DNA from: Basidiobolus heterosporus B8920
Taxonomy: Eukaryota > Basidiobolomycota > Basidiobolomycetes > Basidiobolales > Basidiobolaceae
Assembly: GCA_000697455.1 (NCBI GenBank)
Contig: JNET01030830.1
Location: 1 to 24,439, forward strand
DNA length: 24,439 nucleotides
Direction of reading: 5' to 3'
Positions 639-23,435 of the stretch are shown in pieces. The position numbers were made by a program, and so were the translations under genes. Numbering within the stretch: the stretch's first letter is position 1; the number at the start of each line of letters is the position of its first letter. The notes beneath the pieces were generated by a model. The model saw only the letters and a list, made by a program, of their open reading frames with translations, made no database searches and was not told the origin of the DNA.

Positions 639-2175
639 ATGAGGGTCGACCTGTCCTACTCACGTATTTTTAAAGTTCTCTTTCTGGCTTACCTAGGAGT
701 TTCCATCTTCTACATATTCCACTTTTTCTATAGTTCCCCCAACAAAGCCCACACAAAGACTCCAGTGAACTCCAAACAAACGCCAGTAAACTCTAAGCAA
801 ACCCCCGTGAAAACTGAGCGCCCTGTAACTTCAAGCCAGAACAGCTTATGGGTGAATGACAAACGTAGGTTTTTCACTGACTTTTCTTAAGCCACAAACA
901 TAGGTCAACTCACTCTTCGTCCCTAGACCCAAATATACCTTTTCCCGAAGATTATGTCTATTCCAAGCTATTCTCTGAAGCTATGCAACCCACCAACCTG
1001 AAGCCCTACTATTACAGAATGGAGCCGGCTCCCCCTCCAGAAGATATTACTGTGGCCACTTTGATCACTTCCGACCGGTTTCATGTTTTCAAGAAGTTGG
1101 TCGATAACTATAAGGGTATGTAGGGCAAGTACACGCGCGTTGGCTCAGTGTAATAACTCATTCGATATAGGACCTATTTCGGTAGCACTGCATATTTCTG
1201 ACGACCAAGAGAAAGTGAAGATATTGAATCAGTTAGCGGAGATGTACGAGTCTAATCCACTCATGAAACAATACGTAGATGTTCACCTGATCATTGACAA
1301 CTTTGAAAGACAATTCAATTATTGGAGAAATGTGGCTCGTTTCTTCACACGTACCGATTATTTCTTACTGTTAGACATCGACTTTTATCTATGCACCGAT
1401 TTCCGCGAGAGTCTTAGGAAATATCCGGATTTAATGGATAAATTAAGAAAGGGAAATGCTGCAGTCGTCCTACCAGCATTCGAATATGATGACCTAAATG
1501 AAGGACGTAACGCTGAGGTCTTCCCACGGGTGAAGTCTAAGCTGATAGATTTGGTGGAGGCAGAGAAGATATCTATGTTCCATAAAGGATGGACGCGAGG
1601 ACATGGCTCCTCAAATTACACCCATTGGTACGGCACTAGCACTCCCTATACTGTAACTGAGTACAACTTTAGCTATGAGCCCTATGTTATTGTAAAGAAA
1701 GATGGAGTTCCTTGGTAAAGTCAATCCTTGCAGTATGTAAATGTTCAAGAGAATTAACCGAATCTCTTTCTAGGTGTAATGAGCGGTTTATCGGATATGG
1801 AGGAAACAAAGCTGCATGTCTGTATGAGATCTACCTTTCAGGAGTAGATTATTGGGTTCTACCGGAGGATTTCATCATCCATCAAAACCATGATTACCTA
1901 GAGAACACTCGAAAGATAGAGGTAAGCGGTGAACATTCATCATGGAGACACTTTATTATTATTATTCTATCCCTAACGCAATTATTTAGCGGAAGTTCAA
2001 TAAGAAAGTTTACCAGAATTTCCGAGAAGAGGCATGTTTCCGTTACTTCCGAAACTTCTTATCCCGTGGTGAATGGGATACTCCCAAAGCGGATAATCTC
2101 AAGCGGGAGTGTGGCGAGAATGTACCCCGCTTCTTGCAAGATTCCAGTGCTTTCAAATCGGAGACAGTTCATTGA
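639..2175 (+). CDS. LARGE-like glycosyltransferase, GT49 family (5 exons)
   Basis: A type II Golgi glycosyltransferase, 430 aa after splicing. Exons are 639-864, 927-1115, 1171-1714, 1774-1921 and 1990-2175; introns are 62, 55, 59 and 68 nt. The first has a GTAGGT donor and the second a GTATGT donor, and the fourth has a CCTAACG branch site. A hydrophobic anchor spans residues about 10-31. It is followed by a stem with the 7-residue unit TPVNSKQ twice plus TPV. The catalytic domain starts near residue 120 (DITVATLITSDRF), with GPISVALHISDD, a DID metal-binding DXD-type motif at 207-209, and the GT49 C-terminal signature YEPYVIVKKDGVPW..RFIGYGGNK..LPEDFIIHQNHD. In animals LARGE adds xylose and glucuronate to dystroglycan through two domains; only the GT49 half is present here. 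Fungi have no dystroglycan, so donor and acceptor are unknown. Confidence 0.9.
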
Positions 2176-2202
2176 GTTTTTTGATTAGATGTAACATTCA
2201 CC

Positions 2203-2261
2203 TTGCCACCTATCACCTACCACCTACCACCCACCACCTACTACTCATCACTTACCACTTA
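2203..2261. repeat. CACCTAC-type simple repeat in the convergent 3' interval
   Basis: Imperfect short repeats of the form CACCTA(C/T)CAC lie between the converging 3' ends of the LARGE-like gene (stop 2175) and the NAD kinase gene (stop 2460). The array is purine-poor on this strand. Nothing else was seen in 2176-2459. Confidence 0.6.
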
Positions 2262-2459: not shown

Positions 2460-4195
2460 TTATTCAATATCCCAAGAATCGGAATGGAATGGTTTCTGAC
2501 GTTGTCTTTCGTTCCAATTCAATACTTTGCGTAATCCATTAAACCAATCTATGGACTGGTCGTCTTTGCAAATCGATGGCAATGGATAGTTGGAGGCGGT
2601 GATTGTGATTGAATCTCCACGGTTCAGCTCTACTCGGTGGTGTCCATCAAACGATGCCTGGTTTTGTAAGGGTTAGTGAATGTTGAAGCGAACCAGATCA
2701 AGTCAAAATTACCCATGCTGTGCTTCGTGCTTGCGGTGGTACGCATATCCTAAGTTCCTTGTAACCAGGAATGACCATGGGACGGCAGGTTAGGGTATGT
2801 GGACATATCTGAGTAACCAATATCGCACACATTTCCGGGTGAATAAGCGAGCCTCCAGCGGAGAGCGAATATGCAGTGGATCCGGTGGCAGTGGCAATGA
2901 CCAATCCGTCAGCTAGAATGGTTGTCAAGTGTATGTTATCAACAAACAATTCTAACATAACCATGTTTGGATTCGCCCCACGGTCTACTACCAATTCGTT
3001 CAACACATGGTGCACACCACATTTAGTAAGCGAGCATGAGTCCTCACTCGCAGGGTCGTCAAGGCAGAGGTTGCACATGTTGGGTGTGATACTAGAATCC
3101 GAGAGGTTTTCTATATCCGAGATGCAATTCGCGATTCGTTTGTAAACTGTGCATTTGATTCTCATTCGAAGGTTTGCGTGAATGGATTTACTATCAATGA
3201 TATGGCTAAGGGCCTCTTGAAATTGTCCAAAGTTGTAGACTGTTAAAAATCCCAGAGATCCCAAATGGAACGAAAGGATCGGTGGCACCTTTCTTTGGAA
3301 CAGCAGGGAGGTGTAGAGTACAGTTCCATCACCGCCCAACGTGACGGCCAAATCAACACACTCAGGGAAACACTGCTGTGACCAAAATTTTAATCTGTTC
3401 GCAATGGCTGGGGTCTCAGAGACAATGGCCTCATGCTTGAACGCGGGATTATTTTTAAATGTATCCCCAACGTAAACCGTAAGATGTTCATATTTTTCTA
3501 GAAGCCAGGTAGCCACCAGCTTTGTGTGTTTTACCAATTCTGGTGTAGGTTTAGTAACTATGACGATTTTAGTAACAATCTCCAGTTCGACCAAATAGGA
3601 CTTGAGTTCGCTGATGGAGTTGGTTACTTTGGAGTATCTATTTATCAAACTAGAAACACAGGTCCGATTTTTGGCACAATTTTCAGGTGTGGAGTTCTAC
3701 CAAAAGAAGTCCTTCAGTGATTAGTACAAGAAATGACAGGACGAGAGGTTTGATCTAAGTTAATACTTCATCCGAAATCCGAGATTTGACATGAATTCTT
3801 CTGTGTCCTTGCTCCACTATCTCTTTCAAATATTTCCAAGCATCGCTATTTTCTGCAAAAATCCATTCCATTTAACTAAACAGGCAGAAACATTTAAGAG
3901 TGAGGAAAGTTACCAGTGATGGATATCCAATCTCCTTCAACATCTTTCCACAATAACCTATAATCACGCAACTGAAAGTCGGTATATTCCTTTTGAAACT
4001 GTTCCACTAGAAGTGCGAAACTCAGCTTTTCTTCTATTTCAAGCAAAAATGGTGTGAATTGAAGCAAAGAGTAGATGCTTGAATAAGCACGGAAATTTCT
4101 GGAGAGATTGCTTTGGAAGAGATACCTTTGACGAAAACAAAGTTAGTCTCCCCCCGATGTGTGAGCTTAATACGCAACTGATCCATTTCGTTCAT
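2460..4195 (-). CDS. PB1 domain-NAD kinase fusion (5 exons)
   Basis: Predicted to phosphorylate NAD to NADP; 485 aa. Exons, 5' to 3' on the minus strand: 4195-4126, 4033-3914, 3852-3767, 3696-2713, 2657-2460; introns 92, 61, 70 and 55 nt. Residues about 5-90 are a PB1 domain: a basic first strand (LRIKLTHRGE) and an acidic OPCA loop (WKDVEGDWISI, then D). The kinase follows: GGDGT at about 213-217, FHLGSLGFLT, LNELVVDRG, the nucleotide site ATGSTAYSLSAGGS at about 362-375, and a C-terminal strand segment ending in DWFNGLRKVLNW. The kinase exon has no ATG before the catalytic core and is preceded directly by a TAG that fits an acceptor, so an upstream exon is needed. The 70-nt intron 3697-3766 is phase 0 and contains TACTAAT. 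The first intron (4034-4125) is the least certain: it lacks a clear branch site but is required to avoid a stop. No mitochondrial presequence is seen; cytosolic is likely. Confidence 0.85.
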
Positions 4196-13014: not shown

Positions 13015-15094
13015 TCATTTCTTGGATCTTTGTTTTCTCTTGGTAGGATCAAGCTCCTTCTTACGGAGACGGATTGATTCGGGAGTTACCTCTACGACTT
13101 CATCGTTGCTAACATACGCAATGATTTCCTCGAGAGACATGGGCTTGATGGGACTGAGCTTGATGGCCTCATCTTTGCCTGCGGCTCTCATGTTGTTTAC
13201 CGCTTTAGCACGGACAGGGTTGACCTCAAGATCAGAAGTGTCTTTGCTGTATTCGCCGATCACCATGCCAGTGTAAATCTTGCTACCAGGTAGAACGAAA
13301 AGCTTTCCTCTGGGCTCAATCAAAGAGAGCGCATATGATGTGGAGTCGCCAACAGCAGTGGACACTAAGGCTCCCTTGCGGGTTTTCTCCATCTCTCCCT
13401 TGTATGGCTCCCAGGCATGGAAGATATGATTCAAAACACCCAGTCCGCGGGTATCGTTTTTGAACTCGGCATGGTATCCCAAAAGACCACGAGTGGGGCA
13501 GTGGAAAATAAGACGGGCCTTATCACCGACCTCAGTGAAGATCTTCATTTCAGCCTTACGTTGAGCCAACTTTTCAATGATAGTTCCAGCAAACTCGTGG
13601 TCTACATCGATAGTTACTTCTTCTACTGGCTCAAGGGTTACTCCAGTCTTGGGGTCCTTTTTAAGAACTACTCGAGGTGGAGAGATGGATAACTCAAAGC
13701 CCTCACGACGCATGGTTTCAATGAGAATACCAAGCTGGAGTTCACCTCTTCCGCAAACCTCAACACCCTCTTGGCCAGCAGATTGGGATACAGCAAGGGC
13801 AACGTTAGTCTCAGCTTCTTTCAAAAGACGGTCACGAATCATGGTGGAAGTGAGATATTTGCCCTCTTGTCCAGCAATAGGGGAGTCGTTTACGCCGAAA
13901 AACATGGAGACTGTTGGTGGGTCAACAGGAGTAGAAGGAAGAGGGGTTTGAACCTCCGGGTTACAGAGGGTGGAGTTTACTGTAGCGTTTTTGACACCAG
14001 CAACGGTAATGATGTCTCCAGCACCTGCCTCGTCAACGATGATTTGATCAAGACCGGTACGAGTGAATAGCTTGGTAACACGAGCTTCATCGGTAACATT
14101 ACCATCAGTATCGAGTGCATGAAGACGATCATTGACCCTAATGGTACCAGATGTGATTTTACCCAAGAAACATTTACCCAAGTATGGGTTGCTCTCAATT
14201 TGTGTAACAAGCATTGAAAAGGGTGAGTTCCGATCAACATCTGGGCTAGGAACATGGTTCAAAATCAAGTCGAAGAGTGGATCCATATTTTTGGGCTCAT
14301 CGCCCACGTTTTCCACAGCCCAGCCATCCTTACCAGATGCATAGACAATTGGATATTCCAATTGTTCGTCATTGGCTCCTAGGTTCATAAACAAATCGAG
14401 AAGCTCGCTATCAACCTCAGAGGTACGCGCAGTAGGTCTGTCCACTTTGTTAATTACGACCAAAGGCTTGAGGCCAGCTTCCAATGCTTTAGAGAGAACA
14501 AACTTAGTTTGGGTCATAGGGCCTTCCGTAGCGTCCACAACCAGTGCAACACCATCAACCATAGAAAGAATACGTTCAACTTCACCACCAAAGTCAGCGT
14601 GACCAGGAGTATCGACGATATTGATACGATGGTTCTTGTACATGATGCTGGTTACTTTGGATAAAATAGTAATGCCACGTTCTTTTTCGAGAGCATTAGA
14701 ATCCATAACACGGATATCGGACAAATTTTGTAATGTTCCTGACTGACGGAGTAAACTGTCGACAAGAGTGGTTTTACCGTGATCGACGTGAGCTGTACAA
14801 GTAATCAGTTAGTATAAAGGCTCCACTATGGTTTAGAGAAAAGTAGTTCTTACCAATAATACCAATATTTCTGATAAACTTCGAGTCGATCAGAGTCCCA
14901 AGGGTATTTACAGGAGCTTCCTCATTTTCTGCATCGGGAACGCTGGAATAGGCGCGCAAGAAACGGTAAGTAGCTTGGCCAAGGGGTTTGTTGAGCACTG
15001 ACGAGTGCACATTAGTGCGTAAACCAAATAAGCCATAGCTATGCTTAAGTGGAGCACGAAAAGCAGACATAGTCGGTAGTCTTAAAGCAAACAT
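13015..15094 (-). CDS. Mitochondrial TypA/BipA translational GTPase (2 exons)
   Basis: A ribosome-binding GTPase of the EF-G/LepA group, 672 aa. Exon 1 is 15094-14854 and exon 2 is 14792-13015; the 61-nt intron has a TACTAACTG branch site. The intron splits the P-loop region, and splicing yields GIIAHVDHGKTTLVDSLLRQ. Residues 1-60 are basic and Ser/Ala-rich without acidic residues and end RFLRAYSS, a typical matrix-targeting sequence. Motifs: G1 AHVDHGKTT (81-89), switch KERGITI, G3 DTPGHADFGGEVER, G4 NKVDRP, then VSMFFGVNDSPIAGQEGK, CGRGELQLGILIETMRREG, PTRGLLGYHAEF, and the TypA C-terminus (VNPVRAKAVNNMRAAGKDEA; EVTPESIRLRKKELD) with a basic tail. The start is the first ATG in frame. Bacterial TypA acts in ribosome assembly and stress; by inference this one acts on mitoribosomes. 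Confidence 0.94.
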
Positions 15095-15782
15095 ATCTGC
15101 CAAGTATTGGGTACTCGTTTGGATATATTATAAGACGAGTGGGTAAGCGGAGCAGATAAGTGGAACAGGCAAAGCGAGATGCCACCAACAGTGAAAAATT
15201 TAATGGAATCGACTCCACACATGTGCTGTGCCATGACTACATCAAAGTAGAAACTTTTGGGTGATTGGACGAAGAATTTTTTTTGGAACTTGTGTAAGAT
15301 TTAATTAAGAAAATTTAAGATCAACCTTGACTTATTGGACCTTAAAGCACCTAAAAGCACGTAAAGTACCAAAAATGGAACAGAAGCATCCACATTTTGC
15401 TAATTTGACGAGGGGTAGGTAGTAAGTGGATATATTTTCCCCCGTCGTCTCCCCGTCGTCTCCCCGTCGTTTCCCGTAATCTTGGTATTTGCAAGCGGAA
15501 GTTGGTGGGGTAGACAAAAGTATACGGAGAAAAGAGGGTTGGCAAAAGAGGGTAGAGAAAGGAGGGTGGGGAAGGCCTGTGAGCATTCGACCAATCAAGC
15601 ATCTTGGATAATGATGTGGGCTTAGTTGGCTAACTACTATGAAATTTCCATTCAAGCTGGGCTAAGAAACCTAGGAAAAACTTAGGAAATATTTAATAGC
15701 GAGGAGGTAGCAGTAGGATGGCAATAGAATAGAAACTCCGGTCATCAGTCAGGTAGCGCTAGAACAGAAAACTTCAATCACC
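15095..15782. promoter_or_regulatory. Divergent promoter region of TypA and the GDSL gene
   Basis: No gene is supported. Minus-strand open frames at 15332-15655 are Pro/Ser/Leu-rich, overlap one another in different frames and lack motifs. The interval contains a T/A-rich patch (about 15270-15325), an 11-bp tandem repeat at 15440-15472, a purine-rich stretch (about 15520-15575), and ATATTTAATA at about 15689-15698 upstream of the GDSL gene. Confidence 0.5.
15440..15472. repeat. 11-bp tandem repeat, three units
   Basis: The unit CCCCGTCGTCT occurs at 15440-15450 and 15451-15461, with a one-mismatch third copy at 15462-15472. It is noncoding and lies in the divergent promoter region. Confidence 0.85.
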
Positions 15783-22156: not shown

Positions 22157-23435
22157 ATGAAGGTGAAACGTTACCTTCTACCTATACTACTACTACTTCT
22201 CGACTCAACTCCGCAGACATATAGCCAGAACACCGTCTCGAAACCTATTGCAGAGTGCTATAGCCTTAGTAGCTCGAAATATTGTGGGGGAAGTTACACC
22301 GACTATTATCTCTCTAGCAAGACCACTATAGAGGGTATTCCAGTAACTGATACATCTTCGCTTGACCGCGCCATCGAATATTATTTTGGCTCTTCACAAG
22401 ACATCAAAAAGTGCTCGAGTTACTTTAACTGCAACCCTTTGAGTACTTGGGATGGCGTATACTACCCACCTTTTCGTGAACTTTTTTATTGTAGAACCCT
22501 TTTAGAAGCTCCCTCCTCCAAGTTATGCAATTCACAAAACCCAGTACCACCCGTATGTCAAACGGACTGTTTTCAAAGTGTAAATGATTGGGAGTTTTTA
22601 TGGGGTAATTCTACACTGTGTAACTCTCCTGGAGACCGTGAAACGAAGCGAGCTACCATTACCGATGCTTGGTGCAATACTTTTCCTTTTGACGGAACTC
22701 AAGCAAACTGTATACAACCAAAAGATTCGGCACAAACTGTTTGTGGTATATTTAAATTTCTCCTCTCCACTTAATTCTTTATATCCGAGAGATTTACACT
22801 TTCACTTATGTTAAGGCTACTCACTGCCCCACGATCTTCCTGCTTTGTGTATTTACTGCTCGGGTAATCCTCAAGCGTCGTGCTGTAGTTCAGACCATGT
22901 TCGCTCGTGTCGAGTGCCGGAAAGAAAGCCTAAAAATCAACTCATTCTGATTATACCTATTGTAATAGGTTGCTTAGGCATTATTGGCTTGATTGTAAGT
23001 TTATGGTATTACTTCAGCTTTAAAAAGAGACGGCAGCATATAGAACACAAGGGAGGCCTGCCAAATCCCAACACGGACACATCACTACGGTCTGAACTCA
23101 GGAGTCCGACGATAGATACTGATCACATAACATCAGTATCATCAGTGTATACATGTATATACCCCTATGAACCCACTCTACCCGATGAACTACGAATTCT
23201 ACCGAACGATAGAGTGGCTATTTTGATGTCTTTTGAAGATGACTGGGGTGTGGGCCGTAATCTCACACGTGGTGGTGAGGGAGCATTGCCACTAGCATGT
23301 CTCGACAAAAGCTCAATGCCCTCCGAAGAAACGATCGTTTCAATCGGCAGTAATAGTAGTATACCTAGACGGACAACATCCAAGCGAGATTCAGGAAGCA
23401 CCCGTATATCTCAATACTCTAATCCCATAAAATAA
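22157..23435 (+). CDS. Receptor-like membrane protein: Cys-rich ectodomain, TM segment, cytoplasmic SH3 (2 exons)
   Basis: Exons are 22157-22745 and 22816-23435; the 70-nt intron starts GTATAT and ends TTAAG; 402 aa. Residues 1-24 are a signal peptide (YLLPILLLLLDSTPQTYSQ). Residues 25-230 form an ectodomain with about twenty cysteines and an N-glycosylation site (GNST), ending CIYCSGNPQASCC. One TM helix lies at about 238-262 (LILIIPIVIGCLGIIGLIV), followed by a stop-transfer KKRR. The cytoplasmic part has an SH3 domain at about 306-360: YTCIYPYEPTLPDELRILPN, DRVAILMSFEDDWGVGRN, GALPLACL. ALYDY corresponds to CIYPY, and the conserved Trp of DDW is kept. The Ser/Arg-rich tail has possible phosphosites. 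This architecture resembles fungal Fus1-like cell-surface proteins. Ligand and partners are unknown. The acceptor is weak but is the only one that keeps the TM/SH3 frame. Confidence 0.88.

Follow-up and report, generated by a model that had tools for sequence, protein, structure and literature searches.

An NAD kinase with an N-terminal PB1 domain in Basidiobolus heterosporus and its recurrence in early-branching fungi

Does a locus of Basidiobolus heterosporus B8920 encode one protein in which a PB1 domain is fused to an NAD kinase, as proposed in an initial annotation made from the letters alone, or two adjacent genes, and what might such a domain do on this enzyme? The locus lies on the minus strand at positions 4195-2460 of contig JNET01030830.1, whose 24,439 nucleotides (positions 1 to 24,439) are the window analyzed here. 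Splicing of the five exons (Table 1) keeps the frame intact and gives a protein of 485 amino acids plus stop codon with the order PB1 domain, short linker, helix and complete NAD kinase, exactly reproducing the proposed model of three short PB1 exons ahead of a kinase exon. The intron comparison, covering the four introns of this gene, gave lengths of 92, 61, 70 and 55 nucleotides with GT..AG borders in all four, and recomputation of the third bore out the claim that a phase-0 intron containing TACTAAT joins both parts in frame. It is also correct that the kinase exon has no ATG ahead of its catalytic core, GGDG lying at residue offset 120 of the kinase part and the first methionine only at 177. 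If the third intron is left unspliced, the PB1 frame stops at TAG 3757-3755; its retention would yield a 95-residue PB1-only protein, and regulated retention could provide free PB1. Both Pfam domains of the enzyme are present (NAD_kinase 75 bits, NAD_kinase_C 120.7 bits) and GGDG as well as the second motif block are conserved, which identifies the protein as a putative NAD kinase with predicted catalytic activity. The 92-residue PB1 part alone reaches 28.2 bits with the Pfam PB1 model (E 1.9e-6, cut-off 23.6) and, with Lys10 and the acidic stretch DVEGD, matches the initial description as a complete PB1 domain with basic strand and acidic OPCA loop. The locus is hence predicted to encode a single fused protein, here called PB1-NADK.

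The nearest full-length relative found is an annotated Basidiobolus ranarum protein continuous across the PB1-kinase junction (P0001, 485 amino acids, 88% identity, 100% query coverage), with 73/92 identical residues in the PB1 domain, 42/43 in the linker across the junction and 313/350 in the kinase. A second B. ranarum protein (P0002, 490 amino acids, 80% identity) likewise covers 100% of the query. Since both proteins match over the whole query and P0001 shares 42 of 43 linker positions, the fusion is more than a guess at splicing in one locus. The junction stretch of P0002 is longer and different, as if a splice site had moved, with 30 of the 43 linker residues in common with the window protein. 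Further relatives were collected by a protein search and by a search with an alignment of 30 relatives, taking the best 120 matches of each. Among the matches listed, query coverage of 97-99% is found in Mortierella relatives, Rhizophagus, Funneliformis, Syncephalis, Spizellomyces, Powellomyces, Synchytrium, Rhizophlyctis and others. At least 18 named fungal genera carry a near-complete PB1 together with the NAD kinase (37 domains) and at least 20 when partial PB1 domains are counted, in agreement with the expectation that related genomes would hold both parts in one protein. The groups concerned are Basidiobolus, Mortierella relatives, Glomeromycotina, Syncephalis and chytrids; Basidiobolus, Syncephalis, Spizellomyces and Rhizophagus alone represent four phyla in the NCBI taxonomy. 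A PB1 profile built from the 30 relatives detects the domain in 46 of 140 proteins (45 at E < 1e-3), 16 of them outside the training set. PB1 was not found on the NAD kinases of Mucorales, Blastocladiomycota and the few Dikarya among the matches listed, and no named non-fungal PB1-NADK occurs in the best 120 of either search, with candidates limited to about 8000 and some rows bearing no name.

In a tree calculated from kinase residues only, 24 PB1-bearing rows are separated from 30 ordinary fungal NAD kinases with a bootstrap of 100 and an SH-aLRT of 99, and the window kinase stands outside the ordinary clade and groups with the PB1 rows (100/99), giving additional backing to the fusion. The ordinary fungal and eukaryotic enzymes are the Utr1-like kinases and human NADK; where the ordinary fungal kinases have a variable N-terminal tail, PB1-NADK bears the PB1 domain. 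This careful tree comprises 54 of the 84 rows of a quick tree. It omits all 12 PB1-less rows that nest with the PB1-bearing ones, 7 of the 31 PB1 rows (including the long-branch P0087) and 11 of the 41 ordinary rows (including P0135, P0081 and P0131). The quick tree (84 of 140 rows) agrees, with 40 of 41 ordinary rows forming one clade; the stray, P0135 from Blyttiomyces, has no PB1 and a long branch and attaches basally to the PB1 group of the chytrids. As the 12 nested kinase-only models start in the PB1 end, in the linker or in the kinase, they are likely truncated gene models. Because of the strongly supported split, PB1-NADK appears to be an old kinase paralogue, occurring alongside ordinary NAD kinases in early-branching fungi, and both kinds are indeed present in Rhizophagus clarus (PB1-NADK P0038, ordinary P0041), Linnemannia elongata AG-77 and Linnemannia zychae. 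The simple reading would be that the paralogue arose once near the base of the fungi and was lost later in some lineages, although the tree is unrooted and does not prove it. Hence, the presence of the fusion in B. heterosporus stands, whereas its initial reading as a feature of this fungus gives way to an old and widespread paralogue. A second NAD kinase was not found in the genome of the strain, PF01513 and PF20143 giving one locus each and a canonical kinase query matching just two exons of the PB1-NADK gene; as the 8.1-Mb assembly is probably partial, absence of a second enzyme is not claimed.

Against this background, two adjacent genes, with the 70-nucleotide intron misread, PB1 ending at the TAG and the kinase starting elsewhere, are hardly credible. 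The PB1 frame does meet a stop within the proposed intron, and some relatives are annotated as kinase only, among them two Basidiobolus meristosporus models without PB1, one of which is marked partial, that begin in the kinase or at a methionine within the linker and as such count against the fusion. However, the start points of the kinase-only models are as described above, and in Linnemannia elongata P0022 starts at the linker methionine, whereas the full-length P0008 reads through the same methionine to the PB1 domain. The two-gene reading was rejected on the fused proteins of the relatives, with a near-complete PB1 right before the same kinase group in all the genera counted above, on the linker identity with P0001 and on the missing methionine before GGDG.

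What the PB1 domain could bind may be judged from its fold and conserved residues. Of the structure prediction suggested for the PB1 part, AlphaFold2 models of two relatives, not of the window protein itself, show the PB1 order of elements with five strands and two helices. A fold search against solved structures was uninformative on the PB1 fold, kinase chains filling both lists with no PB1 chain listed. Profile matches of the PB1 part to solved structures are led by NBR1 (E 0.0035), followed by PKC iota (E 0.025). Residue counts refer to 37 of the 46 PB1 matches, nine partial ones being dropped. Position 10 is basic in all 37 (33 Lys, 4 Arg). The OPCA core D-x-D/E-x-D/E corresponds to DVEGD in the window protein, and an acidic residue occupies position 54 in 36, position 56 in 31, position 58 in 29 and position 67 in 28 of the 37 domains, the three core acids occurring together in 26. 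According to an earlier study, fungal NOXR, Bem1, Cdc24 and CBS-PB1 proteins keep two basic residues (Lys-355 and Lys-382 of p67phox) besides the OPCA acids, with few exceptions (PMC2121648). NoxR PB1 domains have a lysine 27 residues after the first one, the spacing of 355 to 382, in 107/107 cases, whereas the corresponding position in PB1-NADK is basic in 2/37 and acidic in 24/37. The mean charge of the first half of the domain is -0.8 in PB1-NADK versus +1.3 in NoxR (joint alignment and charge means using 60 of the 107 NoxR domains), and this is the sole half differing as expected. The aligned residues thus indicate that the PB1 of PB1-NADK has retained its acids better than its basic face and, for this reason, would act chiefly as the acidic partner.

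PB1-NADK resembles several known PB1 proteins without coinciding with any. NoxR/p67phox (TPR-activation-PB1) has the beta1 lysine and the OPCA acids in common with it but lacks a kinase. In pairwise profile alignment, the PB1-NADK domains match NoxR at E 7e-9 and two Cdc24-like PB1 domains at E 2.5e-5, which is no fair ranking because the profiles hold 107 and 2 sequences, respectively. The acidic OPCA face of p40phox (NCF4) is similar, albeit with a weak match (E 0.2 as single sequence, 0.075 as profile), and a single-sequence search of solved structures with the PB1 part gave nothing better than this E 0.2; the domains that accompany PB1 in p40phox are PX and SH3 (PMC2121648), and it lacks a kinase, in contrast to PB1-NADK. 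Bem1, Cdc24 and CBS-PB1 (Mug70) are further fungal families, none of them described with an NAD kinase. A survey of 12 fungal proteomes distinguishes the four PB1 families Bem1, Cdc24, Mug70 and NoxR and sets aside two single finds, a p62-like and a SAM-PB1 protein (PMC7051960); PB1-NADK belongs to none of the four. Consistent with this list and with the initial statement that no such fusion had been described, no description of a PB1-NAD kinase fusion was found in the full-text literature searched, subscription journals being mostly outside its scope. The UniRef label "PB1 domain-containing protein" on two members, P0002 and P0010, means that the domain has already been seen by machine. Enzyme and docking domain are therefore each of a known kind, whereas no description of their conserved combination was found in the literature searched.

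Candidate partners were found in the B. heterosporus genome, where proteins with a fuller basic PB1 face are represented by a NoxR-like and two Cdc24-like sequences. On contig C259, a PB1 exon (50.6 bits) is accompanied by a sub-threshold TPR match, and the gene, spliced by eye, is taken for NoxR, a TPR-PB1 protein of B. ranarum being 58% identical to its product with 99% coverage. Two more loci have PB1 exons, one of them also a PH domain, and are taken for Cdc24. Based on the best 120 of 173 NoxR matches, NoxR occurs among those listed in Basidiobolus, Mortierella relatives, Glomeromycotina and Syncephalis, four of the five lineages with PB1-NADK, although the genera of Glomeromycotina differ from those with PB1-NADK. 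Four NAD_binding_6 loci considered as NADPH oxidase (Nox) genes were rejected: outside any Pfam assignment, two of them read as nitrate-reductase-like and the other two as cytochrome b5 reductase-like genes. By eye, the open frames L011 (contig C244) and L013 (contig C402) of the same genome, encoding 810 and 809 residues, read as nitrate reductases that include a cytochrome b5 part and a reductase part.

Probably, then, this paralogue is a single NAD kinase with an N-terminal PB1 docking tail whose acidic side docks a PB1 partner. The acidic side (Asp54, Glu56, Asp58 and Asp67) would bind a basic-faced PB1 domain head to tail, and docking would set the position of the kinase and hence the site of NADP production, with NoxR or Cdc24 as preferred partners and self-assembly in second place. 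More specifically, PB1-NADK might be a dedicated NADP-supply subunit of the fungal NADPH-oxidase/polarity complex, whose docking on NoxR or Cdc24 would bring NADP synthesis to the site of NADPH use by Nox; this extension is doubtful. If true, it would offer one more answer to a question raised in 2007, namely the identity of the OPCA-bearing PB1 partner of NoxR (PMC2121648).

Several observations weigh against these proposals. In the full fused protein, the PB1 score drops to 23.4 bits, slightly under the Pfam cut-off of 23.6, and the Pfam model finds the domain at E ≤ 0.1 in 19 of the 30 aligned relatives and misses this value in the other 11. All four acids occur together in just 23/37 domains, and 8/37 have no acid at position 58 (seven named chytrids and P0087). 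The second half of the domain has a mean charge of -2.9 in PB1-NADK versus -6.3 in NoxR and a charge of 0 in the window protein. Among the matches listed, NoxR is also present in Mucor, Umbelopsis, Kickxellales and Dikarya, for which only ordinary NAD kinases are listed, and no Spizellomycetales, nor any other chytrids, are among the best 120 of 173 NoxR matches; as NoxR occurs also in fungi without a listed PB1-NADK, its distribution neither singles it out nor excludes it. Moreover, a Nox gene was not found by an exon-wise search of the 8.1-Mb, probably partial assembly; FAD_binding_8 had 0 matches in this genome, but the control likewise matched nowhere, and Nox is thus neither shown nor excluded. 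Finally, the basic residue that every row has at the first lysine position would suit self-assembly as well.

Such self-assembly, in which Lys10 meets the OPCA acids of the next subunit and larger kinase assemblies tune activity, is rather unlikely. The invariably basic beta1 position together with the three core acids in 26/37 domains corresponds to the type I/II pattern as defined in the proteome survey (PMC7051960), and NBR1 and PKC iota as top profile matches point in the same direction; the second basic position, however, mostly acidic in PB1-NADK, leaves a weaker basic face. Still less probable is an internal regulator, the PB1 domain folding back on the kinase and inhibiting it until a partner binds. 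PB1 does stand where ordinary fungal kinases have their variable N-terminal extension, and p40phox provides a published intramolecular PB1 contact (PMC7051960). In the AlphaFold2 model of P0001, however, the linker (residues 92-100) is of low confidence and the predicted TM score (pTM) is 0.69, so that no PB1-kinase contact can be read from it.

The features of the gene and its surroundings are compiled in Table 1. Upstream lies a cullin gene (Pfam, main exon) whose frame ends, by eye, at about 4729, about 530 bases before the PB1-NADK gene.

Table 1. Features of the PB1-NADK gene and other genes in the window (positions counted from the first letter of the window).
Feature	Position	Strand	Content
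Exon 1	4126..4195	-	Start codon and PB1 beta1-beta2 with Lys10; strand positions from the P0001 model
Exon 2	3914..4033	-	PB1 helix 1, beta3, acidic OPCA loop (Asp54, Glu56, Asp58), beta4
Exon 3	3767..3852	-	PB1 Asp67, helix 2, beta5
Intron 3	3697..3766	-	70 nucleotides, phase 0, GT..AG, TACTAAT inside; joins PB1 to kinase
Exon 4	2713..3696	-	Larger part of the NAD kinase (GGDG, NE..VDRG and ADG..TGSTAYSLSAGGS blocks), preceded by linker and linker helix
Intron 4	2658..2712	-	55 nucleotides, GT..AG
Exon 5	2460..2657	-	NAD kinase C-terminus, stop codon
In-frame TAA	4199..4201	-	Two codons upstream of ATG 4195, bounds the N-terminus; by eye
Glyco_transf_49-like gene	1065-2258	+	Convergent with the PB1-NADK gene
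Tandem repeat	2206-2258		Unit of about 14 bases, between the Glyco_transf_49-like and PB1-NADK genes
TypA/BipA-type GTPase gene	13015-15127	-	BipA_C 137 bits; preceding exon resembles a mitochondrial targeting signal (by eye)
SH3 domain gene	22815-23435	+	SH3_1 27.7 bits, after a hydrophobic stretch (by eye); membrane-protein-like, could belong to polarity signalling

The NADP pool is as large as NAD kinases make it, and the way in which cells direct NADP(H) to particular consumers is an open question. The recurrence of PB1-NADK in many early-branching fungi suggests that NADP production is placed at chosen protein complexes. With the paralogue, the published families of fungal PB1 proteins increase from four to five, and NoxR gains a new candidate partner. 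Being kept in chytrids and several terrestrial early-branching lineages, PB1-NADK would also provide a natural setting for tests of local NADP supply by deletion of one domain.
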